A DNA stretch of 64,000 nucleotides from Ardenticatena maritima (GTDB lineage: Bacteria > Chloroflexota > Anaerolineae > Ardenticatenales > Ardenticatenaceae): contig NZ_LGKN01000004.1 of NCBI RefSeq assembly GCF_001306175.1, forward strand, positions 1 to 64,000. Reading direction: 5' to 3'. The position numbers and the translations under genes are program-made. Below are positions 3 through 58,692 of the stretch, piece after piece (within the stretch, counting starts at the first letter, position 1; each line of letters opens with the position of its first letter). A model generated the notes under the pieces. It was not told where the DNA came from and did no database searches. It was given only the letters and a program-made list of their open reading frames with translations.

Positions 3-129
3 GCCCAACCCTGCGTTCAGCGGACGCGGCTGCGCCGCGGGGCAACGCGGGCGGCATTTCGGGCGATGTTGGCTTCGCCAGCAGTGGTGGAAGGACGGCG
101 ACGCCGCGCCGCTGACGCTATCGTTAGGC
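3..129 (+). other. attC-like recombination site 1
   Basis: The site starts with an R''-type box GCCCAAC (3-9) and ends with an R'-type box GTTAGGC (123-129). Just inside, TCAGCGG (17-23) is exactly complementary to CCGCTGA (109-115), as expected for L''/L' boxes of a folded attC. The 3' end fits the general attC end pattern (GCSGCTKA...CGTTAGSC). It would be the tail of a cassette whose gene lies left of the window. Identification is by pattern only. Confidence 0.6.
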
Positions 130-166
130 CGCTGCGCTACAATCAGTCGGTTCACCAACTTATCAC

Positions 167-354
167 GTGACGTTGGAACATATGAGACTTTTCGACGAAA
201 CGGAAAGAAACGACCACGAATTGGCTCAATATGCTGAGCCATTCTTTGCTTACTTGAACCGTACGGCAAGGGTTAAGTTTGCCACGATTCGTCGCAAGTT
301 GGAAGAGTGGTTTGCCCGCTATCCGGCTTCTGACCAAGCATACGGAGGTGCAGC
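167..354 (+). pseudogene. Probable truncated N-terminal gene fragment
   Basis: A reading frame opens at GTG 167 or ATG 182. Its first ~57 residues look like real protein, with a segment LNRTARVKFATIRRKLEEWF followed by ARYP, but the frame then runs into the start region of the PH-like gene, where the residues stop looking protein-like; it formally stops at 424. I recall similar N-termini on larger uncharacterised proteins but cannot name the family. It may be the broken front end of a longer gene left inside the cassette. No clear ribosome binding site is seen. Confidence 0.35.
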
Positions 355-606
355 ATGTCAGATGTACTCAAGTTCGGTTCAGCCATTCTTGGTAATAGGC
401 TTATCATCTACGACAATCGGGTAGAGATTATAACGGGATTTTGGCCATTTAGACGCAAGAGAGTGATACCATTTAATAACATAGCCAGCGTTGAAACCCC
501 TCGGTTTCTCAATGTGGTAGTGATCCACACAAATGATGGCAAAAGACACAAGTACTCTGTGGGAAATGCCAAAAAGATCCAACAGGCAATTGTTGAAAGG
601 ATGTAA
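355..606 (+). CDS. Small PH-domain-like protein (cassette gene)
   Basis: This 83-residue protein starts at ATG 355 behind a good ribosome binding site (GGAGGTG, 345-351). The sequence alternates short beta strands with a WPFRRKRVIPF segment and an I-A-S-VE turn, then ends in a helix (KKIQQAIVERM). This pattern is typical of small bacterial pleckstrin-homology-like proteins (strand-rich body, one C-terminal helix). No signal peptide or membrane segment is seen. The gene is flanked by attC-like sites and is richer in A+T than the chromosomal genes to the right, which fits a mobile cassette gene. The biological role is unknown and the PH call rests on pattern only. Confidence 0.6.
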   Translation: MSDVLKFGSAILGNRLIIYDNRVEIITGFWPFRRKRVIPFNNIASVETPRFLNVVVIHTNDGKRHKYSVGNAKKIQQAIVERM

Positions 607-625
607 ATATTTAGTTGAGTTGGCC

Positions 626-695
626 GCCCAACCTGCGCTTTGAGCCGACAGGCCTCCCTTCGGTCGGCCTGCGGCTGAATCGCAAGCCGTTAGCC
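626..695 (+). other. attC-like recombination site 2
   Basis: R''-like GCCCAAC (626-632) and R'-like GTTAGCC (689-695) enclose an imperfect inverted repeat: TGAGCCG (641-647) against CGGCTGA (672-678), and CAGGCC (649-654) against GGCCTG (666-671). One mispaired position inside the arm resembles the extrahelical bases of known attC sites. It lies 20 bp after the stop codon of the PH-like gene, the usual place for attC in a cassette. Confidence 0.65.
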
Positions 696-1147
696 GCTCA
701 TTCGCTTGTACTTTGACAGGACGAACCCTCGCTGCACCAGAGAGAGGGTTCCGCTCAGCACACAACCTCACCAAAGAAGCCCACTCTCAGGTGATGGCAA
801 GAATGCCGTAGACGCCATGCCGCCGTCTTCGCACACGACCGGCCACAAGCAGGCCGCTCGCCCTGGCGTGACGAACGAAAAGTGAGGCTGGGGCTTGTCG
901 GTGTTGCTCGACGCTCCAGTACAGGCTGGCTGATGGACAAGGCGGCTTGCGCGCACTTCCTCAGCAAGGTGAGGACTGGTTGAATGCGTGGGGCATGTTG
1001 GTGGGCAGACAAGCGCGGTGTGGCGGTGCGTTGCCACGAGCACGCGGAGGCGTGTCCACGTCGTGGGGTGTTGCGCCAGCCAACGCTGGCTAACACGCGC
1101 TTGCAGCCGACCCGCTCCGCTGCGATCGCGGCGGCTGAAGCCTGTCG
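690..1147 (+). repeat. Gene-poor cassette, copy A
   Basis: The DNA between attC-like sites 2 and 3 (about 460 bp) holds no convincing gene. It is a diverged copy of 2094-2466: both begin GCCGCTCATTCGC and both end in the same GGCTAACACGCGC run. Open frames exist on the minus strand (755-1096 and the matching 2155-2436) and give Arg/Pro-rich products alike in both copies, but the likeness follows the DNA and both copies carry length changes, so they are not called as genes. This accounts for the gene-free stretch 607-1181. Confidence 0.65.
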
Positions 1148-1153
1148 TTAGGC
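1088..1153 (+). other. attC-like recombination site 3
   Basis: This is the best formed of the five sites: R''-like GGCTAAC (1088-1094), L''/L' arms CAGCCG (1104-1109) and CGGCTG (1132-1137), and R'-like GTTAGGC (1147-1153). The last 23 bases agree well with the general attC end consensus. The next gene starts only 28 bp beyond the R' box, the tight spacing usual in cassette arrays. Confidence 0.75.
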
Positions 1154-1181
1154 TTCTTCAGTGTCGAACAGTGGAGGAAAT

Positions 1182-1979
1182 ATGCAAAGACAAAGTGAAC
1201 AGCGTAAGGCAACGATCTTCTTCACAACGATCATCGTAACCTATCTGCTGCCAGTTGCACTATTTTGGGTAGCGTCATTACTTCCTTCCAATAATTTGTC
1301 CAAGTATATGTTCACTGCTATTGGCTCATTGGTCGTGTTAGCAATTGCCCTTTTTGCTATTCGCAATGATACGGTGAATCTGGAAGAGATTGGTTGGACA
1401 AAGGAAGGACTTCAACAAACCGTGAAAGTCATAGCGGTTGGTTGGATGCTATGGGCAATACTTATCATCAGCGTTAACTTCAAGTTGGGATACCCGTTCA
1501 GTGAAAACTTTGAATCTCCGTTGTCCAAGATTTTCGTGCAGTGGCTATTTGTTGGCATAGCCGAAGAAGTGCTTTTTAGGGGGTATATTTTCACCAGACT
1601 GACACAATTCTTTGCGAAAACCGGCCGGGTGTGGTCAAAGGTAGCAGGCGTGGTAATCAGCAGTCTTATCTTTGCCACATTTCACATTCCGCAGCGGATA
1701 TTTGTGCATGGCATGGAACTAACACCCGATGTGCTAATGAGACAAATGTTTCCATTGTTTCTGGTAGGTGTGTTGTTGGCGTGGTTGTTTTTGCGCAGCC
1801 AAAATGTGCTCTTCGTTGGTCTATTTCACGGTGGGATGAATGCACCGCTGATTGGCCGAGAAGGAGATTTAGCACCAATTCTCTTGTTCTTGGTGTTGGC
1901 AGAAGTAATCGCTTGGAAAAGGAGAAAACGGACCAGCGTATCGAAGACAAGTAATTTGTTCAGACAAGGTGAAGCCTAA
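1182..1979 (+). CDS. CPBP-family intramembrane metalloprotease (cassette gene)
   Basis: The 265-residue protein is a polytopic membrane protein with about 7-8 hydrophobic segments and the CPBP (CAAX protease / bacteriocin-processing, ABI) signature: motif 1 EEVLFRG, motif 2 FATFH, and a C-terminal FHGGMN carrying a third conserved His. Family members are glutamyl intramembrane proteases such as Rce1 and bacteriocin self-immunity proteins. The ATG at 1182 is chosen because GGAGG lies four bases upstream; a GTG at 1161 lacks such a site. The stop codon lies inside the R'' box of attC-like site 4. It is A+T-rich relative to the chromosome, which suggests acquisition. The substrate cannot be inferred. 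Confidence 0.85.
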   Translation: MQRQSEQRKATIFFTTIIVTYLLPVALFWVASLLPSNNLSKYMFTAIGSLVVLAIALFAIRNDTVNLEEIGWTKEGLQQTVKVIAVGWMLWAILIISVNFKLGYPFSENFESPLSKIFVQWLFVGIAEEVLFRGYIFTRLTQFFAKTGRVWSKVAGVVISSLIFATFHIPQRIFVHGMELTPDVLMRQMFPLFLVGVLLAWLFLRSQNVLFVGLFHGGMNAPLIGREGDLAPILLFLVLAEVIAWKRRKRTSVSKTSNLFRQGEA

Positions 1980-2099
1980 CCCCGGCTGTAGCAGACCGGG
2001 GCTATGCCCCGGAGATAAGCAGCGCGATTTTGCCCAATGGTTCTGGGCAAAGATTTTTTCTGGTTAACACCGCCCCGGCCGCTAAGCCAACCGTTAGCC
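1974..2099 (+). other. attC-like recombination site 4
   Basis: R''-like GCCTAAC (1974-1980) overlaps the CPBP stop codon, and R'-like GTTAGCC (2093-2099) closes the site. The L' side (GGCCGCTAAGCC) matches the attC end pattern. The interior holds its own hairpin, CCGGGGC then GCCCCGG. The L'' partner is not clear, so this is weaker than site 3. Confidence 0.55.
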
Positions 2100-2466
2100 G
2101 CTCATTCGCTCGTACTTTGACAGGACGAACCGCCGCAACGCCAGAGAGATGGTCTCACGCAGCACACTTCTCACCAAAGAAACCCACTCTCAGGTGATGG
2201 CAAGAACGCTGTAGACGCCGTGCCGCCGTCTTCGCACACGGCCGGCCACAAGCAGGCCGCTCGCCCTGGCGTGACCAACGAAGAGTGGAGATGGATCTTC
2301 CAGGCGTTGTTCGGCGCTCCAACACTGGCTGATTGCGAGGCGAGGCGGCTTGTGCGCGCTTCCTCAGCAAGGTGCGGCTGGTTGGGTACAGGCTGGGGGT
2401 GGCGTGTCCACGTCGTAGGGGTGTTGCGCCAGCCACCGCTGGCTAACACGCGCTTGCAGCCGACCG
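2094..2466 (+). repeat. Gene-poor cassette, copy B
   Basis: This is the second copy of the element at 690-1147, shorter by several internal deletions but collinear along its length. It runs from just inside the R' box of attC-like site 4 to the attC remnant at its right end. No convincing gene is seen on either strand. Together with the remnant and the feature-poor stretch 2473-2668, it accounts for the gene-free interval 1980-2668. Confidence 0.65.
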
Positions 2467-2472
2467 TTATGC
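2441..2472 (+). other. Truncated attC-like site 5
   Basis: The left half (GGCTAACACGCGC then TTGCAGCCGAC) is identical to site 3, but the L' half and central hairpin are missing and the sequence jumps directly to CGTTATGC, an R'-like box. About 34 bp appear deleted relative to site 3. It probably marks the right boundary of the array. Between 2473 and 2668 I see only a short open stretch ending at about 2609 with no start codon. Confidence 0.5.
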
Positions 2473-2668: not shown

Positions 2669-3340
2669 ATGATGATCTGGCACGTGACCGTCTATCTGCT
2701 CAAACGAGACGCGCCTCGCGAAGGGCTGACCTTCGTCATGCCATCCTGGTGGGATGCGGAACGCCTTTTTGAGGTGAACGCCAGCCGCCAGATAGTCCTG
2801 CCTGACGGTCGGGAGGTGCTCCTGTTGGCGCAGGAAAACATTCTTGGGGTTAATTCGGACGAGCGCAAGGCAGTCTGGCTACTTCCCCAACGGAAGACCA
2901 AAGACGCCGAGATTGAGCAGCAGCGAACCGCCCTTCTGGACATGGTGACAAAAGCCAGATGGCTCATTGTAGAGCGAAAACAGGTGTGGGTAGTGCCTGC
3001 ACATAGCCAGCCGGGATGCGAGGTCTGGGACCCGGATTGGTGGTCTTCTTTCTACACGGACAAAGTGCAAGACTTCAAAGAATGGTATGACTTCTTCCGC
3101 CAACGCCACCGGCTCGACGAGCGCAGCTTCGAGATGTCCAATCCTGTGCAGATGGGGTTTGTAGAGCTACTCACCCCATCCGAAGCACGGGAGATGGACG
3201 AGCACTACCGAAAAGCCTATCAGATAGCGCGGAAGCAGAGCAGTCTAAAAATATCCACCTCCTTCCGCAAGCGCATGGACCGCTTTGCCCAATCTTTGCA
3301 ACAGGCGGAGCGGGTCATTCTCTATCATTGGAGTGAGTAG
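2669..3340 (+). CDS. Uncharacterised protein, 223 residues
   Basis: I do not recognise this protein. It is soluble in appearance, with no signal peptide or membrane segment, and is rich in Trp (about 11) and charged residues. It opens with a beta-like stretch (WHVTVYLL) and ends with Lys/Arg-rich helices. The ATG pair at 2669/2672 has only a weak GGGG element upstream, so the start is uncertain. The long frame and protein-like composition support a real gene. It sits alone just outside the last attC-like remnant, with nothing functional on either side for 200-270 bp (3341-3614 also holds nothing recognisable), so it may be acquired DNA. Confidence 0.6.
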   Translation: MMIWHVTVYLLKRDAPREGLTFVMPSWWDAERLFEVNASRQIVLPDGREVLLLAQENILGVNSDERKAVWLLPQRKTKDAEIEQQRTALLDMVTKARWLIVERKQVWVVPAHSQPGCEVWDPDWWSSFYTDKVQDFKEWYDFFRQRHRLDERSFEMSNPVQMGFVELLTPSEAREMDEHYRKAYQIARKQSSLKISTSFRKRMDRFAQSLQQAERVILYHWSE

Positions 3341-3614: not shown

Positions 3615-4004
3615 ATGAGCAGCGATACCCTGTTTCTCCTCGGGCTCTCATCTCTCACCGGGCTGCTTTTTATCGCCCTGGCTATTCCTCTTATCCAGAA
3701 AAGAATACCCAAAAACCATTGGTATGGCTTGCGGATTCCGGCCACATTTGCCAACGAACGTGTGTGGTACGAAGCCAATGCGCGAATGGGGCGCGAACTC
3801 TTGCTGCTGGGGATATTGAGCATCGTGCTGGGCATACTTCTTTCTGGAGTTACAACATCCTCCTCGCTGCCTGCCATGCTGTGGGCTGCATTCCTCCTCG
3901 GCGGCGTGATACTTGTCACCGTGCGGAGTTGGCGTTTTGCGAATCGGCTCCTTGAAGAGTACACCAGCGAGCCAGGGACGACATCCTCCCCACAGACACA
4001 TTGA
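3615..4004 (+). CDS. SdpI-family integral membrane protein
   Basis: The 129-residue protein has three to four hydrophobic helices and the signature shared by SdpI/YhfL-type proteins: P-K-N-x-W-Y-G-L-R-I-P after the first helix, then ERVWYEAN and a Gly about four residues on. SdpI of Bacillus subtilis is the immunity and signalling protein against the SdpC toxin, but most members are uncharacterised. GGGAGG lies about 8 bases before ATG 3615. The gene is single and is followed by a bidirectional terminator. No SdpC-like toxin gene is nearby, so an immunity role is not supported here. Confidence 0.7.
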   Translation: MSSDTLFLLGLSSLTGLLFIALAIPLIQKRIPKNHWYGLRIPATFANERVWYEANARMGRELLLLGILSIVLGILLSGVTTSSSLPAMLWAAFLLGGVILVTVRSWRFANRLLEEYTSEPGTTSSPQTH

Positions 4005-4044: not shown

Positions 4045-4081
4045 GATGGTGTACAGAGCAAGCCAAACACGCATGCCCTCG

Positions 4082-5725
4082 TCAGAGAACATACGCCCGC
4101 CCCGCCATATGCGCTAACCCCTTCGGGTCAAGCGCTGCGTTGATCACCACCGGTTTGTCCAGCGAGAACGCTTGTTCAAGGGCTGGGCGAAGTTCATCCG
4201 GTGCTTCTACGAGCACCCCCACACCCCCTAACGCTTCCGCTACCAAATCGTAGCGCGTAAACGCCAACTTGGTGGCAACAGCGCGTTCTTCACCAAAAAA
4301 TTGCACCTGTGGGTTGCGAATTTGCCCCCATTGTGCATCATTCCCAACCACGGTGACAAACGGCAAGTGATGGCGCACCGCCGTATCCAACTCAAAACCA
4401 TTGAAACCAAACGACCCATCGCCGCTCAGCAACAGTACTTTGTACTCAGGGCGCAGTTTCTTCGCCGCCAGAGCGAACGGCTGCCCCACCCCCAGACACC
4501 CCAACGGACCCGGATCGAGCCAGAGACCGGGGGCATGGGGACGCACCACCTTCGCCGCCATCGCCACCACATCGCCACCATCTCCGATGAAGATTGTGCG
4601 GTCGTCGAGCACGTTGGCAATCTCACGCGCCAGGCGGAAGTGATGAATGGGTGTCGCATTGCTCCGCTCGTACTCGGCTTGGGCTTCAGCCTGCGCCCGT
4701 TCGAGGGCTTCCACATCACGCCGCCACGCTGCGAACGAAACACCGCCCTCCTCCGTCAGCGCCGCCAACAAAGCTTCCAGCGTCGCACGCACATCGCCCA
4801 CAATACCGACATCGGCATCGCGGTTCTGCCCAATTTGCGTCCCGTCAGGTTCAATCTGAATCAGCCGCGCATTCGCATTGAACGCCCCGTATTTGAGGCG
4901 GAAATCAAGCGGCGTCCCGGCAATGATCACCACATCCGCCTGTTGCAACGCCTTCCCTCGCGAAAGGAAGAAGGCGCTGGGGTGGTCGGGGGGCAACAAG
5001 CCGCGCGCCATACCATTGAGATAGGTGGGGATAGCGGTTTCTTCGGCGAAACGCTGCAAAATCTCGGTCGCATCGTCCCAATACGCGGTGGAACCAGCAA
5101 TCAGCACCGGACGGCTCGCATTGCGGAGCAAATTGGCCGCTTGCGCAATCGCGCGTGGGTCGGGATAGGGGCGGGCTGTTGTGCGATAGCGTTCCGGCAA
5201 AGGCGTTTGGTCGGTATTGACAATGTCGGCGAGAATATCGAACGCCATTTCCAAAAAGACCGGCCCAGGCCGTCCATCCAGCGCAATACGGAACGCCCGC
5301 GCCATGAATTCGGGAATACGGTCGGCACTGGGAACAGCAGCGCTCCACTTGGTGATTGGCTTGAACAAATCCACCTGTTCCATCTCTTGCAATGCCCCTT
5401 TCCCCTGAAACGCTGTGGGCGCCGCACCACCAATCACCAGCAACGGCGAACCCGCCTGGTACGCATTCGCCACAGCGGTGACAGTTCCCGTCACACCCGG
5501 CCCCGCCGTGACAACAGCACACCCAATCCCGCGCGTGAGACGCGCCCACGCATCGGCAGCGTGCGCCGCGGCTTGCTCATGGCGCGTATCAACGATGTCA
5601 ATCTGGTGCGCCAAACACCCGTCGTAAATCGGAGCGATATGCCCCCCACACAAGGTGAAAATCGTCTGCACGCCCTCTTTGGCGAGCATGGCTGCCACCA
5701 GGTGTCCACCCATCACTTTCGGCAT
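4082..5725 (-). CDS. ThDP-dependent enzyme, acetolactate-synthase-like
   Basis: At 547 residues this has the length and three-domain order of the acetolactate synthase / oxalyl-CoA decarboxylase / 2-hydroxyacyl-CoA lyase superfamily. The N-terminal PYR domain carries the catalytic Glu in DTRHEQAA (about residue 50), the central domain is of TPP-enzyme M type, and the C-terminal PP domain has the ThDP/Mg motif GDGS...GND. The region before it ([16 protein letters not shown]) resembles the lyase branch as much as biosynthetic IlvB. No regulatory subunit gene (ilvN) is adjacent, which argues against the standard branched-chain role. AAGGAGTAAGCC precedes ATG 5725. A 10-bp palindrome CAAACGTTTG (5755-5764) with a LacI-type CG centre lies 30 bp upstream. 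The substrate is not decidable. Confidence 0.8.
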
Positions 5726-52570: not shown

Positions 52571-53266
52571 ATGCCCGATTTGGATCGCACACGCATTGAC
52601 GCCATTCTGTTTGACCTGGACGGAACGCTGCTCGCCCTGCGTGGCGGGCAAAAAGGGGGAGCGCTGGCGGCACGACTGCGTCCACTTGCGCCTCTTCTGC
52701 CGGGGCGCAACCCCGAACAGTTCATGCGGCGCATCTGGGTGCTCAGCGAAACCCCAACCAACTACGTGCTCGCCATGCTCGACCGCGTGGGGCTTGACAC
52801 CTGGCTGCGCCCCCTTGCCGACCGCGCCCGCCGCGCGAAAGGCATCGGCACGCTGGAAACGCTCGCCCCTATCGAAGGCGCGGTCGAAACGGTGCAGCGG
52901 CTCGCTCAGCAGTACGCCCTCGGCGTGCTCACCAACCGCGCCCGCCGCGAAACCTACGCCTTTCTGGAACAAACCGGCTTGCGCCCACTCTTCGGCGCTA
53001 TCACCACCCGCCAGGACCTCTGGCGCTTCAAGCCGCACCCGCAAGCCGTTCGGCGCACGGCGCGCTTGCTGGGCGTTGCGCCGGAGCGCGTGCTCATGGT
53101 GGGCGACATGCCTGTTGACATGGAAACCGCCCGCCGCGCCGGCGCGCAAGCGGTGGGCGTGCTGACCGGCTTTGCCACCGAAGCGGAACTGCGCGCCGCC
53201 GGCGCAACGATCATTCTGCCGTCGGTGCGTGAATTGCCCGCCATCCTGCTTGAATCTGCACCCTGA
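52571..53266 (+). CDS. HAD-superfamily hydrolase (phosphoglycolate-phosphatase-like)
   Basis: The 231-residue protein has all HAD motifs: I LFDLDGTLL (nucleophile Asp and acid/base Asp), II LGVLTNRARRE (Thr), III Lys in WRFKPHPQAV, IV MVGDMPVDMETARRAG. A helical cap of subfamily I lies between motifs I and II. The substrate is not evident; family members act as phosphoglycolate or other small-phosphate phosphatases. ATG 52571 is set by GGAGGAG eight bases upstream; the frame opens earlier in shadow of the sortase gene. It lies 11 bp before folB. Confidence 0.88.
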   Translation: MPDLDRTRIDAILFDLDGTLLALRGGQKGGALAARLRPLAPLLPGRNPEQFMRRIWVLSETPTNYVLAMLDRVGLDTWLRPLADRARRAKGIGTLETLAPIEGAVETVQRLAQQYALGVLTNRARRETYAFLEQTGLRPLFGAITTRQDLWRFKPHPQAVRRTARLLGVAPERVLMVGDMPVDMETARRAGAQAVGVLTGFATEAELRAAGATIILPSVRELPAILLESAP

Positions 53267-53277
53267 GAGGCACACCC

Positions 53278-53655
53278 ATGAACAACGACCGCATTCTCAT
53301 TCGAGGGCTGGAATGCTACGCCGCCATCGGCGTGAGCGCCGCCGAGCGCGAAGTCGGCCAACGCCTGCAATTCAACGTGGACGTATGGCTTGACCTCGCG
53401 CCCGCCGGACGAAGCGACAAAATCAGCGACACCGTCAGTTATGCCAAACTGGCGCGCGCGATTGTGGACGTCGCGCGGCGCAAAAACTACTACCTGCTGG
53501 AACATCTGGCGGAAGAAGTCGCCACGCACCTGTTGACAACCTTCCCCATCGAAGCCGTGCGTGTGCAAGTGCTGAAAACACCGCCGCCCGTGGATTTGCG
53601 CATCGTGGCGGCTGGTGTCGAAATCGAACGTCGGCGAGGTGAACCCCATGCCTGA
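53278..53655 (+). CDS. folB: Dihydroneopterin aldolase
   Basis: FolB cleaves 7,8-dihydroneopterin in folate synthesis. The 125-residue protein has the full family length and motifs: ILIRGLECYAAIGVSAAERE (usual G-x-x-G-V-x-x-x-E-R), VSYAKLA, LLEHLAEEVA (active-site Glu) and VRVQVLKTPPPV (Lys of the C-terminal KP motif as K-T-P). Its last 8 bp overlap the moeA start. Pairing of a pterin-pathway enzyme with molybdopterin synthesis is of interest because both are pterin-related. Confidence 0.92.
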   Translation: MNNDRILIRGLECYAAIGVSAAEREVGQRLQFNVDVWLDLAPAGRSDKISDTVSYAKLARAIVDVARRKNYYLLEHLAEEVATHLLTTFPIEAVRVQVLKTPPPVDLRIVAAGVEIERRRGEPHA

Positions 53656-54880
53656 ATCCAAGTGGCCATTGCTCCCGGTCTCAGAAGCCCGTCGCATCAT
53701 CCTTGAACACGTCCAGCCGCTGGGCACCGAAGAGCGCCGTTTTGAAGACGCGCAAGGCTACGTGCTCGCCGAGGACGTGCGCGCCCGCGAACCTATGCCG
53801 CCCTTCCCCGCAAGCGCCAAAGACGGGTTCGCCGTCATTGCGGACGATACGACCGAATGGCGGCGCATCGTTGGCGACCAATTCGCCGGCTACGACGCCA
53901 ACCTGCGCGTGGAATACGGTACCGCCGCCCGCATCACCACCGGCGCACCGGTTCCCCAAGGCGCAAACGCCGTCATCATGGTCGAATTTAGCGAAGTGCA
54001 GGGCGACCGTGTGCGCTTCACCCGCCGCGTTGAACCAGGCGCCGACATCCGCCCCGTTGGGCAAGACATCGCCCAAGGGCAAGTGGTGCTCCCCACCGGC
54101 ACACGCCTGGGTCCCGCCGAATTGGGCTTGCTGGCGACGGTTGGCGCGACACGCATCACCGTTTGGAAGCGCCCCCGTATCGGCGTCATGAGCACGGGCG
54201 ATGAACTTGTCGAACCGGACGAAACGCCCGGTCCGGGGCAAATTCGCGACGCCAACCGCTTCAGCCTCATGGCCGCCGTGCGCGAAACAGGCGCCGAAGC
54301 GCTAGACCTGGGTCTAGCGCCTGACACCGCCGACGCCCTGGAAGCCTTCATCCGCGAAGGGCTGCGCGCGTGCGACGCCATTGTCACCAGCGGCGGCGTT
54401 TCCATGGGCGAACTGGACCTCGTCAAGCCCCTGCTGGAACGCATGGGCACCGTGCATTTTGGGCGTGTCTCGGTCAAGCCGGGGAAACCAGTGACGTTCG
54501 CGACGGTGGACGGCAAGCCGTTTTTCGCCATGCCGGGCTTCCCCGTCTCCTCATTGGTCGCGTTCGAGATTTTTGCCCGCCCCGCCCTGCTCCGTATGGC
54601 CGGCTGGCCCCTGGACGCGGTGGAACGCCCGCGCGTGCCCGTCGTGCTCGACCATGATATTCGCCACGGCGCCGCTCGCACCGAGTATCAGCGCGCCATT
54701 GTGCGCTTCGACCGCACCGATGGACGTTTCCACGCCACCACAACCGGCTTTCAGGGAAGCGGGCGCTTGCTGAGCATGGTAGGCGCCAACGCACTGCTGG
54801 AACTTCCCGAAGGGCGCGGTGATTTTCACGCCGGCGAATCGGTTGACGCCTTGCTCATCGCGCCGCTCAAAACGGAGTAA
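53648..54880 (+). CDS. moeA: Molybdopterin molybdotransferase MoeA
   Basis: MoeA inserts molybdate into adenylated molybdopterin. The 410-residue protein has the four-domain MoeA layout: N-terminal (ALEDAQGYVLAED-like FEDAQGYVLAEDV, PPFPASAKDGFAV), the MoCF fold (IGVMSTGDEL, GQIRDANRF, TSGGVSMGELDLV, VKPGKPVTFA, PGFPVSS) and a C-terminal beta domain. Here the usual S-x-M-D-G-Y reads SAKDGF. ATG 53648 lies in the folB tail (8-bp overlap). It suggests that the organism uses a molybdenum or tungsten enzyme; no such enzyme gene is in the window. Confidence 0.93.
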   Translation: MPESKWPLLPVSEARRIILEHVQPLGTEERRFEDAQGYVLAEDVRAREPMPPFPASAKDGFAVIADDTTEWRRIVGDQFAGYDANLRVEYGTAARITTGAPVPQGANAVIMVEFSEVQGDRVRFTRRVEPGADIRPVGQDIAQGQVVLPTGTRLGPAELGLLATVGATRITVWKRPRIGVMSTGDELVEPDETPGPGQIRDANRFSLMAAVRETGAEALDLGLAPDTADALEAFIREGLRACDAIVTSGGVSMGELDLVKPLLERMGTVHFGRVSVKPGKPVTFATVDGKPFFAMPGFPVSSLVAFEIFARPALLRMAGWPLDAVERPRVPVVLDHDIRHGAARTEYQRAIVRFDRTDGRFHATTTGFQGSGRLLSMVGANALLELPEGRGDFHAGESVDALLIAPLKTE

Positions 54881-54883
54881 ACC

Positions 54884-55675
54884 ATGGACGAGCGCACCTA
54901 CCTGCGCACCCAACAGTACGGCACAGCCGCCAACCTGAACGCCCGCATTGAACTGCATCGCCGTTTCAGCACGAACACCTACCCGTGGCACACCTGGGTT
55001 CTCGACCACATCCACGCCCCAAACAACGCCCGCATTCTCGAAGTGGGGTGTGGTCCCGCCTCTCTCTGGCGCGACCACCTGGCGCGGATTCCAACGGCGT
55101 GGCGCATTGTGTTGGCGGATTTGTCGGAAGGCATGGTGCGCGAAGCCCACGCCCACGTGGGGCGCGATCCCCGCTTTGCCTTCCTGAGCGCCGACATTCA
55201 AGCCCTGCCCTTCGAGGACGCTTCTTTTGATACCGTCATCGCCAACCACATGCTCTACCACGTCCCCGACATTGAAACGGCGTTGCGCGAAGTGCGCCGC
55301 GTGCTCAAACCGGGCGGGCGCTTTTACGCCGCCACAAACGGACCCCGCCACCTGGCGCAATTTCACGAATGGGCGCACCGCCTGGGGCGCGAATGGCTGA
55401 CGTTCGACCGCAGCACATTGCAAGAGCGCTTCTTGCTGCACAATGGCGAACGCTTGCTCCGCGCCCATTTTCAACATGTGCGCCGCGACGACTATCCCGA
55501 CGCGCTGCACATCACCGCAATCGAGCCGCTTCTGGCGTACATTGCTTCCACGCCGGTAGGGCAATCGCTTCGCGCAGACGAGTGGGAAGCACTGCGCACC
55601 CTGCTGGAAGACGAATTGGCGCGTGAAGGCGTCATCATCGTGGAAAAAGAAAGCGGCTTGTTCGAGGCATGGTAA
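54884..55675 (+). CDS. Class I SAM-dependent methyltransferase (UbiE/SmtA-like)
   Basis: The 263-residue protein has the SAM-binding motif I ILEVGCGPASLWRDHL, motif II region IVLADLSEGMV, motif III FLSADIQALPFEDASFDTVIANHML in two pieces, and LREVRRVLKPGGRFY as post-motif region. The substrate domain at the C-terminus is not specific to any known group. It lies 3 bp after moeA and 14 bp before the MazG-like gene, so it is probably in the same transcript. The substrate is unknown. Confidence 0.88.
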   Translation: MDERTYLRTQQYGTAANLNARIELHRRFSTNTYPWHTWVLDHIHAPNNARILEVGCGPASLWRDHLARIPTAWRIVLADLSEGMVREAHAHVGRDPRFAFLSADIQALPFEDASFDTVIANHMLYHVPDIETALREVRRVLKPGGRFYAATNGPRHLAQFHEWAHRLGREWLTFDRSTLQERFLLHNGERLLRAHFQHVRRDDYPDALHITAIEPLLAYIASTPVGQSLRADEWEALRTLLEDELAREGVIIVEKESGLFEAW

Positions 55676-55689
55676 ACGAGGAGGAAAAG

Positions 55690-56076
55690 ATGGACCCGCT
55701 GACACTGGTACGCGAATTTCATGAACGGTTTGGGGTTGAAATTGCCGACGCGCCGACGCTCCCGCCGCCGCATCTGCGCGAATTGCGCTTGCGGCTCATC
55801 CAGGAAGAGATGGAAGAGTTATGTGAAGCCGCACGCCAGGAAGATTTACCCGCCATTGCCCGCGAACTGGCGGATTTGCTGTACGTCTGCTACGGGATGG
55901 CGCTGGTGTATGGTCTGCCCATTCACGAAGTCTTTGCCGAAATTCACGCCAGCAACATGAGCAAACTCGGTCCCGATGGAGAGCCTATCCGTCGCGAAGA
56001 TGGGAAAGTGCTCAAAGGTCCCAATTTTCGCCCGCCGAATGTCGCGGCACTGCTGGCAAACGCATCATCCGGGTGA
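55690..56076 (+). CDS. MazG-like nucleotide pyrophosphohydrolase
   Basis: The 128-residue all-alpha protein carries the MazG/PRA-PH metal motif: LIQEEMEELCEAA (E-E-x-x-E) followed by ELADLLYVCYGMAL (E-x-x-D). The C-terminal half (HASNMSKLGPDG, VLKGPNFRPPN) is like phosphoribosyl-ATP-pyrophosphohydrolase-type housecleaning enzymes, where NMSK follows the active site. It would hydrolyse (d)NTPs or a related nucleotide. ATG 55690 is set by GAGGAGG five bases upstream; an ATG at 55669 overlaps the methyltransferase stop. It ends the operon before a terminator. Confidence 0.85.
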   Translation: MDPLTLVREFHERFGVEIADAPTLPPPHLRELRLRLIQEEMEELCEAARQEDLPAIARELADLLYVCYGMALVYGLPIHEVFAEIHASNMSKLGPDGEPIRREDGKVLKGPNFRPPNVAALLANASSG

Positions 56077-56110
56077 ATGTGCGCCAGTTGCGCAGTCTCC
56101 AGGCAAAGCG

Positions 56111-56138
56111 AAAGCGGGGGCGATTGTGCCCCCGCTTT
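56111..56138. terminator. Bidirectional intrinsic terminator
   Basis: An 11-bp perfect stem AAAGCGGGGGC / GCCCCCGCTTT with a six-base loop, between the convergent MazG-like and PCu(A)C genes. The same stem sequence recurs at 62990-63014. Confidence 0.85.
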
Positions 56139-56151
56139 GCTGTCCGCGCGC

Positions 56152-56667
56152 CTACTGCTCACGCACTTCAACCGTCACCGTGATGGAACCGGCTTTCTCG
56201 AAAACAAACGTCGCCTCGAACGTATCCCCCACCTGCAAATCGCGCTGCATCCCCATCAGCATGACGTGATAGCCGCCCGGCTCAAAGCGCACCGTTTCGC
56301 CGGCGGGAATTTCCACGCCATTGGGTTGGGGCATCATTTTGGCAACGCCGTTCGCGTCAACTTCCGTGCGGTGAATTTCCACGCGCTCCGCTACGTCGGT
56401 TTCAACACGCAACAGGCGATCGGCGGTGTTAGTCTCATTGACGATGGTGGCAAAGATGACGCCCGGCGTGCCCATCGCCGCCATCTCGCCATCCTCATGG
56501 TTGTGCGACATCTCGCCACTCTCGCCGGCGTCCATCCCCATCGCCATCTGCTGCACCGGGCGCGACCAGGCATCACGCACTTCAAGCGTCCCTTCCGATT
56601 CACCAGCGCCGCCGCAGGCTGTCAACGCCACCAGCAAAAAACCGAGTATGCCAAGAAACTTCTTCAT
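56152..56667 (-). CDS. PCu(A)C-family periplasmic/extracellular copper chaperone, lipoprotein
   Basis: PCu(A)C proteins deliver Cu(I) to the CuA/CuB sites of cytochrome oxidase, usually beside Sco. The 171-residue protein is a lipoprotein (lipobox LVALTAC). The cupredoxin-like domain has LEVRDAWSRPV, a family motif, the His in RVEIHRT, the Met pair GVAKMMP and the H-x-M of GYHVMLMG, which together form the usual copper site. A His/Met/Asp-rich insertion (MAMGMDAGESGEMSHNHEDG) after strand 1 adds possible Cu ligands. ATG 56667 follows GGAGACACGT. It is 36 bp after the Sco gene. Confidence 0.9.
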   Translation of the reverse strand: MKKFLGILGFLLVALTACGGAGESEGTLEVRDAWSRPVQQMAMGMDAGESGEMSHNHEDGEMAAMGTPGVIFATIVNETNTADRLLRVETDVAERVEIHRTEVDANGVAKMMPQPNGVEIPAGETVRFEPGGYHVMLMGMQRDLQVGDTFEATFVFEKAGSITVTVEVREQ

Positions 56668-56703
56668 ACGTGTCTCCACTTGTGTTTGGGGGGTGTTGTT
56701 GTT

Positions 56704-57303
56704 CTAGTCCAAAAGGGCTTTCAGGTCAGCCGCCATTTCCTCAGCGGTGAGTGTGGGCGCCCATAGCAATTTGAGATTGCCGTCCGGGTCAATCAGCAGG
56801 ACGCTCGCGGTATGGTCGAACAAAATCGTTTCACCTTGCGATTGGTCGGCATAGTAAATGCCCAACGGCGTTGCCAATTGCGCCAGGGCGTCCGGCGTCC
56901 CCCGCAAGCCGATGAAAGAGGGGTTATAACTTTCCACATAGTTTTTGAGGCGGTCGAGCGTGTCATGTTCAGGGTCCACCGAAACAAACACCACTTGCAC
57001 CTGTTCAGCCTCTTCCGGTGAAAGTTGCGCCATCATGTTGCGCAGTTTCAGCATGGTTGTCGGACAGACGTCGGGGCAATGGGTATAACCAAAAAAGAGC
57101 ACGACGTACTTGCCGCGCAAATCGCTCAACCGCATTTCAGCGCCGCGTGTGCTTTCCATGGGAACATCCGGCGGAACACGCCCCGGCTCAAACGCGGTGC
57201 CATAGAAAACCGGTGGGCGCATTTGCTGAACGACGAACAAAAGCGCCACCACGCCAACAAGCGCGATACCCGCCATCACAATCAACCGTCTGCGTTGCTG
57301 CAT
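56704..57303 (-). CDS. SCO1/SenC-family copper metallochaperone
   Basis: The 199-residue protein is a membrane-anchored thioredoxin-fold protein of cytochrome oxidase assembly. One N-terminal helix (~8-28, LIVMAGIALVGVVALLFVV) is followed by the Sco domain: FFGYTHCPDVCPTT (C-x-x-x-C Cu/redox site), VFVSVDPEHDT and the distal Cu-ligand His in LFDHTASVLLIDPDG. ATG 57303 is set by AAGGAG upstream; the frame opens earlier at an ATG that overlaps the Shine-Dalgarno. With the PCu(A)C gene it indicates a copper-containing terminal oxidase and aerobic respiration. Confidence 0.93.
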   Translation of the reverse strand: MQQRRRLIVMAGIALVGVVALLFVVQQMRPPVFYGTAFEPGRVPPDVPMESTRGAEMRLSDLRGKYVVLFFGYTHCPDVCPTTMLKLRNMMAQLSPEEAEQVQVVFVSVDPEHDTLDRLKNYVESYNPSFIGLRGTPDALAQLATPLGIYYADQSQGETILFDHTASVLLIDPDGNLKLLWAPTLTAEEMAADLKALLD

Positions 57304-57396
57304 CTCTCCACTCCTTTTCCTCATCTCAAACGTCTGATAGGGTACTTGTCGCAAGTCATACAGACAAGATGACATTCTTCACACAAGCGCCATGCA

Positions 57397-57423
57397 CAAA
57401 AAGAACGCACCTCTGGTGCGTTC
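57397..57423 (-). terminator. Intrinsic terminator of the SH3b-M23-UDG-pseudokinase operon
   Basis: A 9-bp perfect stem GAACGCACC / GGTGCGTTC with a three-base loop (57403-57423) followed on the minus strand by TTTTTG, 28 bp after the pseudokinase stop. Confidence 0.9.
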
Positions 57424-57450
57424 CAGTGCCCGCTGAGTGCGTAGGGGGCA

Positions 57451-58692
57451 TCACTCCGGCGGGGGACCCAAACTGACAATCAAATCGACGGCTGTCCCGG
57501 CGAGCACCTGCACATCAGCACGCGGGTTCTGCTCGATGACCAGCCCGGCGGGCACAGCCGCATCATAGGCATAGCGCACCAGACCGCGCTGCAAGCCGGC
57601 GGCTTCCAGCGTTGCTGTGGCATCATCCAGCGACAAGCCAAACAGGTCAGGGGTTGTGACAATGGCGGGCGCTTCCACCGTCTCAGCCGCCGGTGTGCTT
57701 ACCGCCGGCGAGGCTGGTGCCGACGCGCCGTTGTTTCCTTGCGAAACCTGCCAGACAAACGCCACCAACATCACAAGCAGGAGCGCACTCAACACCCCCA
57801 TTGAAAACATCGTTTCAGGCGAAGAAGAAGCGCGCACAGGCGCCGCCTGTGCTTCAGCCCCCATTGAATGCGCCACTTCATAGACACGATCGTGCAAGGC
57901 GAGCGGCAAAGTGCGCGCCAACACACGCGCTGTTGGCGGGCGCATGTACGGGTTGGGGCTCAAACAACGCAGAATGAGCGTTTCCAGCGTCTCGGAAAGC
58001 AGTGGGTTATACCGTGAGGGGGGTGTCGGGTAGAGCCGCGAGGTATCGTTGGGCGCAAAGGGTGAGTGCTGTGTGAGCATTTCATACAGGATGACGCCCA
58101 ACGAATACACATCCGCCGCGGTTGTGAAGGGCGCTGACGGGTTTTCAAGACGCTCCGGCGCCAAATAGGGGTGAACATCCGGAACATCGTAGCCTACCGC
58201 CAGCATGTCGGAAAGTTCCCATGCCGCAAATGTCACATGCAGATGGTTGTGCGGCTCTTCGAGAATGTAAATCGTCGCCGGCGTCAACGCCCCATGCGCC
58301 ACGCCCGCAGCATGGACGGGGGCGAGCGCTTCAACAATCGCCGTTCCCACGGTAACCGTCATCTCTGGTTCGCCCAAGTGGGCTTCCGCCATCCACTGGC
58401 TGAGCGAAATCCCCGCCGGCGGGTATTCAACCTGGTAGAGCGTGCCATCTTCGGTCGCGCCAAAATCAAGCAACGTGGGAAGCGTAGGAAGCGCCAATTC
58501 GCGTAAACGCCACAAGCGGTCATACCAGCGGTCGTAGAAAGCGCTTGACTGATTCAGTTCCGGCAAGAAGCGTTTGATCCAGACAATGCGGTCATGTTCG
58601 ACATCCACGCCCTCGAAGAGGTCATACCCCGGGCGACGGTCAATCAACCGCACAACGCGAAAACGAGGGGTTGGTTGCCATTCAACGCTCAT
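57451..58692 (-). CDS. Membrane PASTA protein with degenerate Ser/Thr kinase domain (pseudokinase)
   Basis: The 413-residue protein has the Hanks-type layout: kinase-like domain (~10-270), membrane helix (~293-315), Ala/Pro/Thr spacer and one PASTA domain (~345-413). The VAIK-like Lys is present (VWIK, Lys40), as are APE (LAPERLENP) and the DVYSLGVILYEMLT F helix. The catalytic loop HRDLKPEN is replaced by HGALTPAT (133-140) and the DFG motif by FAAW (155-158), so both catalytic and metal-binding Asp are absent. It should bind, not phosphorylate. The start ATG 58692 shares its A with the UDG stop (TGATG). Confidence 0.9.
   Translation of the reverse strand: MSVEWQPTPRFRVVRLIDRRPGYDLFEGVDVEHDRIVWIKRFLPELNQSSAFYDRWYDRLWRLRELALPTLPTLLDFGATEDGTLYQVEYPPAGISLSQWMAEAHLGEPEMTVTVGTAIVEALAPVHAAGVAHGALTPATIYILEEPHNHLHVTFAAWELSDMLAVGYDVPDVHPYLAPERLENPSAPFTTAADVYSLGVILYEMLTQHSPFAPNDTSRLYPTPPSRYNPLLSETLETLILRCLSPNPYMRPPTARVLARTLPLALHDRVYEVAHSMGAEAQAAPVRASSSPETMFSMGVLSALLLVMLVAFVWQVSQGNNGASAPASPAVSTPAAETVEAPAIVTTPDLFGLSLDDATATLEAAGLQRGLVRYAYDAAVPAGLVIEQNPRADVQVLAGTAVDLIVSLGPPPE

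Follow-up and report, generated by a model that had tools for sequence, protein, structure and literature searches.

A 64-kb window of Ardenticatena maritima very probably carries the distal part of a chromosomal integron with a dead integrase

The window analyzed here is a stretch of 64,000 nt that represents bases 1–64000 of a 705 kb contig (C4), window base 1 being the start of the contig, in a draft genome of 12 contigs that is 98.6% complete. Very probably, the window carries the distal part of a sedentary chromosomal integron with a dead integrase, that is, a pseudo-integron; the other half of the array (array 1) was found on a second contig (C1, 27.8 kb). In the direction of the array, the proposed order is selB, a truncated and frameshifted intI on the opposite strand, a Pc-like promoter, an attI-like site, and the cassettes. 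An active IntI would have inserted circular cassettes at attI via recombination of folded bottom-strand attC sites, and the integrase would then have lost its C-terminal catalytic part as well as its frame, after which the integron would have been unable to rearrange its cassettes by itself. Folding of the attC sites is preserved, and an integrase acting in trans could still use them. Because intI is broken, array 1 is probably frozen.

The first-pass annotation of the window had listed five attC-like sites. Four of these are complete, with the order and the direction that had been proposed, but the fifth, at the end of the array, is only a truncated half-site without an L' box and without a hairpin or stem (Table 1). 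Complementarity of L'' and L' had been described for sites 1–3; it is present there but is not confined to these sites, with all four full sites pairing. As had been suggested as a check, the bottom strands were folded, resulting in one long stem with R'' and R' paired and with the unpaired bases on one arm (fold z from −0.7 to −3.0 in the window, and down to −4.3 on C1). The R''/R' cores are GTTRRRY-like. Thus, where an integron should have at least two attC sites of the same orientation with foldable bottom strands, we found four in the window and four on C1.

A single cut-off, combining R''/R' pairing, the bottom-strand stem and the energy per base, was set after the sites were known. On the + strand of the 64 kb it retrieved exactly the four full sites and no other, while 20 copies of the entire window from a first-order Markov model yielded 0 or 1 matches each and other loci of the genome (166 kb, strands summed) yielded two. 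Since this cut-off had been picked after seeing the sites, an independent covariance model is the better test. Such a model (R1) was built from seven aligned attC-like sites, taken from four other genomes in which they neighbor intact intI genes; its E-values are rough. In 167 kb, searched on both strands, R1 matched all four full sites of the window (E from 2.1e-12 to 1.9e-4), without matching the half-site, and gave no clear match outside of the arrays. It also matched all four full sites of C1 (E of at most 7e-11), and on contig C6, which harbors a second array, it gave one weak match (0.014) and one marginal match inside the C6 island (0.19). An Rfam search of both halves of array 1 returned only a sub-threshold chance match to a snoRNA.

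Table 1. Features at the left end of the window (positions in the window; CM R1, covariance model R1)
Feature	Position	Strand	Details
attC 1, 127 bp	3..129	+	CM R1 E 1.1e-6; bottom strand folds, R''/R' fully paired
Overlapping ORFs, 80 aa (182-424) and 83 aa (355-606)	182..606	+	GC 0.45
attC 2, 70 bp	626..695	+	CM R1 E 1.8e-9; fold z -3.0
Gene-less cassette, copy C4a	690..1087	+	Four further copies in the genome
attC 3, 66 bp, part of gene-less cassette C4a	1088..1153	+	CM R1 E 2.1e-12
CPBP (Rce1-like) intramembrane protease gene	1182..1979	+	PF02517 E 1.2e-19, above cut-off; GC 0.44
attC 4, 126 bp	1974..2099	+	CM R1 E 1.9e-4; fold z -3.0, 0/200 shuffles
Gene-less cassette, copy C4b, internal deletion	2093..2440	+	77% to C4a (alignment)
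Truncated attC half-site, array end	2441..2472	+	R'' (GGCTAAC) and L'', then GTTATGC
223-aa orphan gene	2669..3340	+	Inside the region missing from the empty site of G001
SdpI-family membrane protein gene	3615..4004	+	PF13630 E 4.9e-13; inside the region missing from the empty site of G001
Right conserved flank, thiamine-diphosphate enzyme gene	4081..5725	-	Synteny with G001:C32; acetolactate-synthase-like by reading

The left half of array 1 is located at the end of C1 (C1:1-3700) and is directed out of the contig, and no other contig end besides that of C4 shares this array. In G001, a genome of the same genus, no integron separates selB from the conserved gene that follows; the two lie on one contig (C32), 154 bp apart, and the second is the counterpart of window 4085-5725, with 93% protein identity. 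The DNA homology to G001:C32 extends on C1 up to where selB ends and sets in again 148 bases on at C4:4081, so that C1 would lead into C4 across the gap between the contigs, as judged from this synteny and from the lack of any other candidate contig end. The selB locus of G001 is an empty site with respect to array 1 and joins C1 to C4. Absent from it are intI, the array, and the two genes to the right of the array (2669-3340 and 3615-4004), altogether at least 8.7 kb that were either gained in the present lineage or lost in G001. No attC follows either of these two genes, and we do not call them cassettes; the 223-aa gene has relatives elsewhere in the genome and in the family. The integron that G001 itself possesses is at a different location.

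An integrase gene had been predicted to the left of the window, and a leftward search for an IntI with patch III and for an attI site had been proposed. With C1 and C4 joined by synteny, this prediction was borne out in the form of a remnant. It lies beyond the first cassette on C1 (C1:3914-4580, + strand), is divergent from the array, as expected for the IntI-type tyrosine recombinase of an integron, and contains the IntI-specific patch III. Positions 1–74 of the TIGR02249 profile are matched in one frame and positions 75–220 in the next (E 1e-28 and 5e-62), so that there is one frameshift, and a stop follows after position 220. No match to positions 221–315 was found on C1, and the last ~95 residues, which comprise HxxR and the catalytic tyrosine of an intact integrase, are missing. 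The gene thus reads as a truncated, frameshifted pseudogene, and since positions 221–315 are absent and the frame is broken, the integron is decayed and not functional. A sequencing error could account for the single frameshift but not for the C-terminal loss, because selB ends within about 50 bases of the truncation. No other match in the draft genome exceeded the TIGR02249 cut-off for IntI; an intact intI may be located in the gap between C1 and C4 or in the ~1.4% of the genome missing from the draft. The phylogenetic tree places the remnant as sister to an intact IntI from the same family, that of genome G002 (81% identity, 99/98), and not to the IntI of the same-genus G001 (65%).

The search on C1 also uncovered a putative attI site between intI and the first cassette. 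The sequence directly upstream of this cassette is TCTAGTTAATA, followed by GTTAGCC (attI core TAATA/GTTAGCC), and a similar core (TTAATA or TCAATA, followed by GTTAG) occurs at the same place beside the intact intI genes of G001, G004, and G048. In addition, the platform contains an array-directed TTGACA-17-TACGAT (p 0.01 versus shuffles in its own platform), and a significant array-directed promoter-like site was present in 10 of the 12 platforms compared, mostly with a 17-base spacing. From these patterns, we infer that a Pc-like promoter would drive transcription of the array. The attC sites, attI, and the promoter would have outlived the integrase in array 1.

Array 1 has nine visible cassette places, four of which are occupied by one family of gene-less units of ~400 bp. 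The order on C1 is a gene-less cassette, a PDC-S54 cassette, a membrane protein cassette (352/364 aa), a second gene-less cassette, and a methyltransferase-like cassette (weak similarity) that is cut at the contig break. After the gap, the order on C4 is the 80/83-aa pair, a gene-less cassette, the CPBP protease, and a gene-less cassette with the broken attC. The attC 1 site is the end of a cassette with its gene in the gap, and this is probably the methyltransferase-like cassette that is interrupted at C1:1. A site of the same length (127 bp), similar to attC 1 at its ends, is located beside the intact intI of the same-genus integron (G001:C10:1218-1344). PDC-S54 (L020:1930-3171) is a candidate defence cassette (PADLOC E 1.8e-170), and no paper under this name was found in the literature searched. 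The 83-aa ORF shows weak similarity to the bacterial PH domain (bPH_2, E 0.0019, which does not reach the curated cut-off). The cassette genes had been described as A+T-rich, in agreement with GC contents of 0.44–0.45 in the window, compared to 0.59 for the window as a whole. Across both halves of the array, the coding cassettes range from 0.36 to 0.45, but the interspersed gene-less units are rich in G+C (0.62–0.63).

The gene-less family had been overlooked in the first reading, although the units 687-1112 and 2089-2470 of the window are copies of one sequence. Relatives of 2089-2470 are present only at C4:687-1112, C1:240-664, C1:3226-3648, and C6:56343-56770; the five copies are 73–88% identical over their length, and all of them reside inside the two arrays and none outside. 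Copies C4a, C1a, and C1b start at a GTTAGCC core and end exactly in a full attC. A protein gene was rejected in view of the lack of a shared open frame and of a 3-base substitution periodicity in any pair of copies. A structured RNA was likewise rejected, with folding no better than that of shuffles (z −1.0 to +1.9, both strands, five copies); covariation was seen in 4 of 131 predicted pairs, with an unfavourable covariation term. As sigma-70 promoters, the top-scoring sites were no better than shuffles. In 298 sampled genomes of the class, no relative was found, only short matches, mostly to the attC end, some of which are inside or beside other attC sites. Phage, plasmid, and viral (IMG/VR) collections also contained no relative. 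A match of one Desulfopila contig to a 23-base core of the family covers only 24 bases between unrelated genes, without an attC, and was taken as chance.

Most likely, the family multiplied through successive cassette insertions at a time when IntI still worked. Non-coding cassettes are also paralogous and repeated in Vibrio arrays (PMC1382264), and gene-less cassettes of Vibrio frequently show promoter activity that software is unable to predict (PMC11014356). The units described here share with these cassettes that they are repeated, conserved over the full length, and non-coding, that they are limited to one host group, and that each has its own attC. They differ from them in being ~400 bp long and G+C-rich and in making up four of the nine cassettes of one small array, and from the promoter-bearing cassettes in the missing sigma-70 signal, although in silico prediction is unreliable in this respect (PMC11014356). 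Most work on repeated gene-less cassettes has so far dealt with Vibrio, and here they occur in an unrelated lineage. A speculative and rather unlikely extension is that the gene-less cassettes are regulatory or insulating units that recur among the gene cassettes and keep the genes of the dead integron expressed, that the C6 platform was filled in trans, and that the whole is a host-domesticated store without need for an integrase. That the units are independent, MITE-like mobile elements instead of cassettes is very unlikely: five copies in one genome, with none in the other collections searched, would suit such elements, but three of them run from a GTTAGCC core to a full attC, and not one of the five lies outside of the two arrays.

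The second array (L022, C6:48000-66000; C6 ~53000-57500) is adjacent to a tRNA-Asn gene, at which the homology with G001 ends. It has the same attI core and a promoter-like TTGACA-17-AATAAT site ahead of its first cassette, and no intI was seen there. Its contents include the gene-less copy as well as Hypoth_ymh, DUF4236, and Mrr-like genes. The absence of a functional IntI from the draft genome, together with this attI- and promoter-bearing array without intI, could indicate that array 1 is also a CALIN, in which the attC cluster would have been built by an integrase acting in trans without ever having one of its own. For the C6 array, with no integron-integrase nearby, this reading stands. 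For C1/C4 it is most improbable, given the intI remnant in the canonical place and orientation, accompanied by attI and Pc. CALINs are well known, and draft contigs split integrons into apparent CALINs according to the IntegronFinder authors (PMC9024848). The window or C4 alone would score as a CALIN, having attC sites in a cluster but no working integrase; the difference lies in the intI remnant, attI, and Pc on the adjoining contig.

We therefore return to the pseudo-integron, a known kind of integron that is well resolved here by the empty site. Integrons of Chloroflexota are on record (PMC8618304, PMC2426708), and in a survey that lists Chloroflexi nearly one third of the intI genes were pseudogenes (PMC2426708). 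Like known pseudo-integrons, such as those of Xanthomonas and of this survey, array 1 is chromosomal and short, with an inactivated intI in the canonical divergent orientation. Unlike them, it combines a frameshift with a C-terminal truncation at the selB border, has a dominant gene-less cassette family, and shares its genome with a second attI-bearing array without intI. With an empty site available in the same genus and an integrase lost by two separate lesions, it represents a clean case of integron decay.

In 19 of 60 related genomes, TIGR02249 was matched above the cut-off, and several others had broken pieces. Intact IntI is thus common in a class that is hardly covered in the integron literature we found, and gain and decay of integrons look frequent in it. 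Cassettes also pass between families, as the gene of the first cassette on C6 (L022:8800-9399) has 86% amino acid identity with the first of the G048 integron (L055:4417-5013).

The view that the sites are ordinary dispersed palindromes (REP/BIME-like), to which their G+C-rich inverted repeats between small genes and the repeated unit might point, has virtually no probability left, in view of the GTTRRRY-like cores, the intI at the head of the array, and the absence of the whole block from the empty site, and it is refuted by the genome-wide distribution of R1 matches, which, among the 150 of 2,448 candidates scored in 3.56 Mb, were confined to array 1, the C6 array, and one lone cassette. This whole-genome search missed the two long sites of the window. 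The lone cassette has its attC at C3:679210-679281 (L079, E 1e-5) and occupies a secondary site by itself; its 114-aa gene shares 89% identity with a gene of the C6 array.
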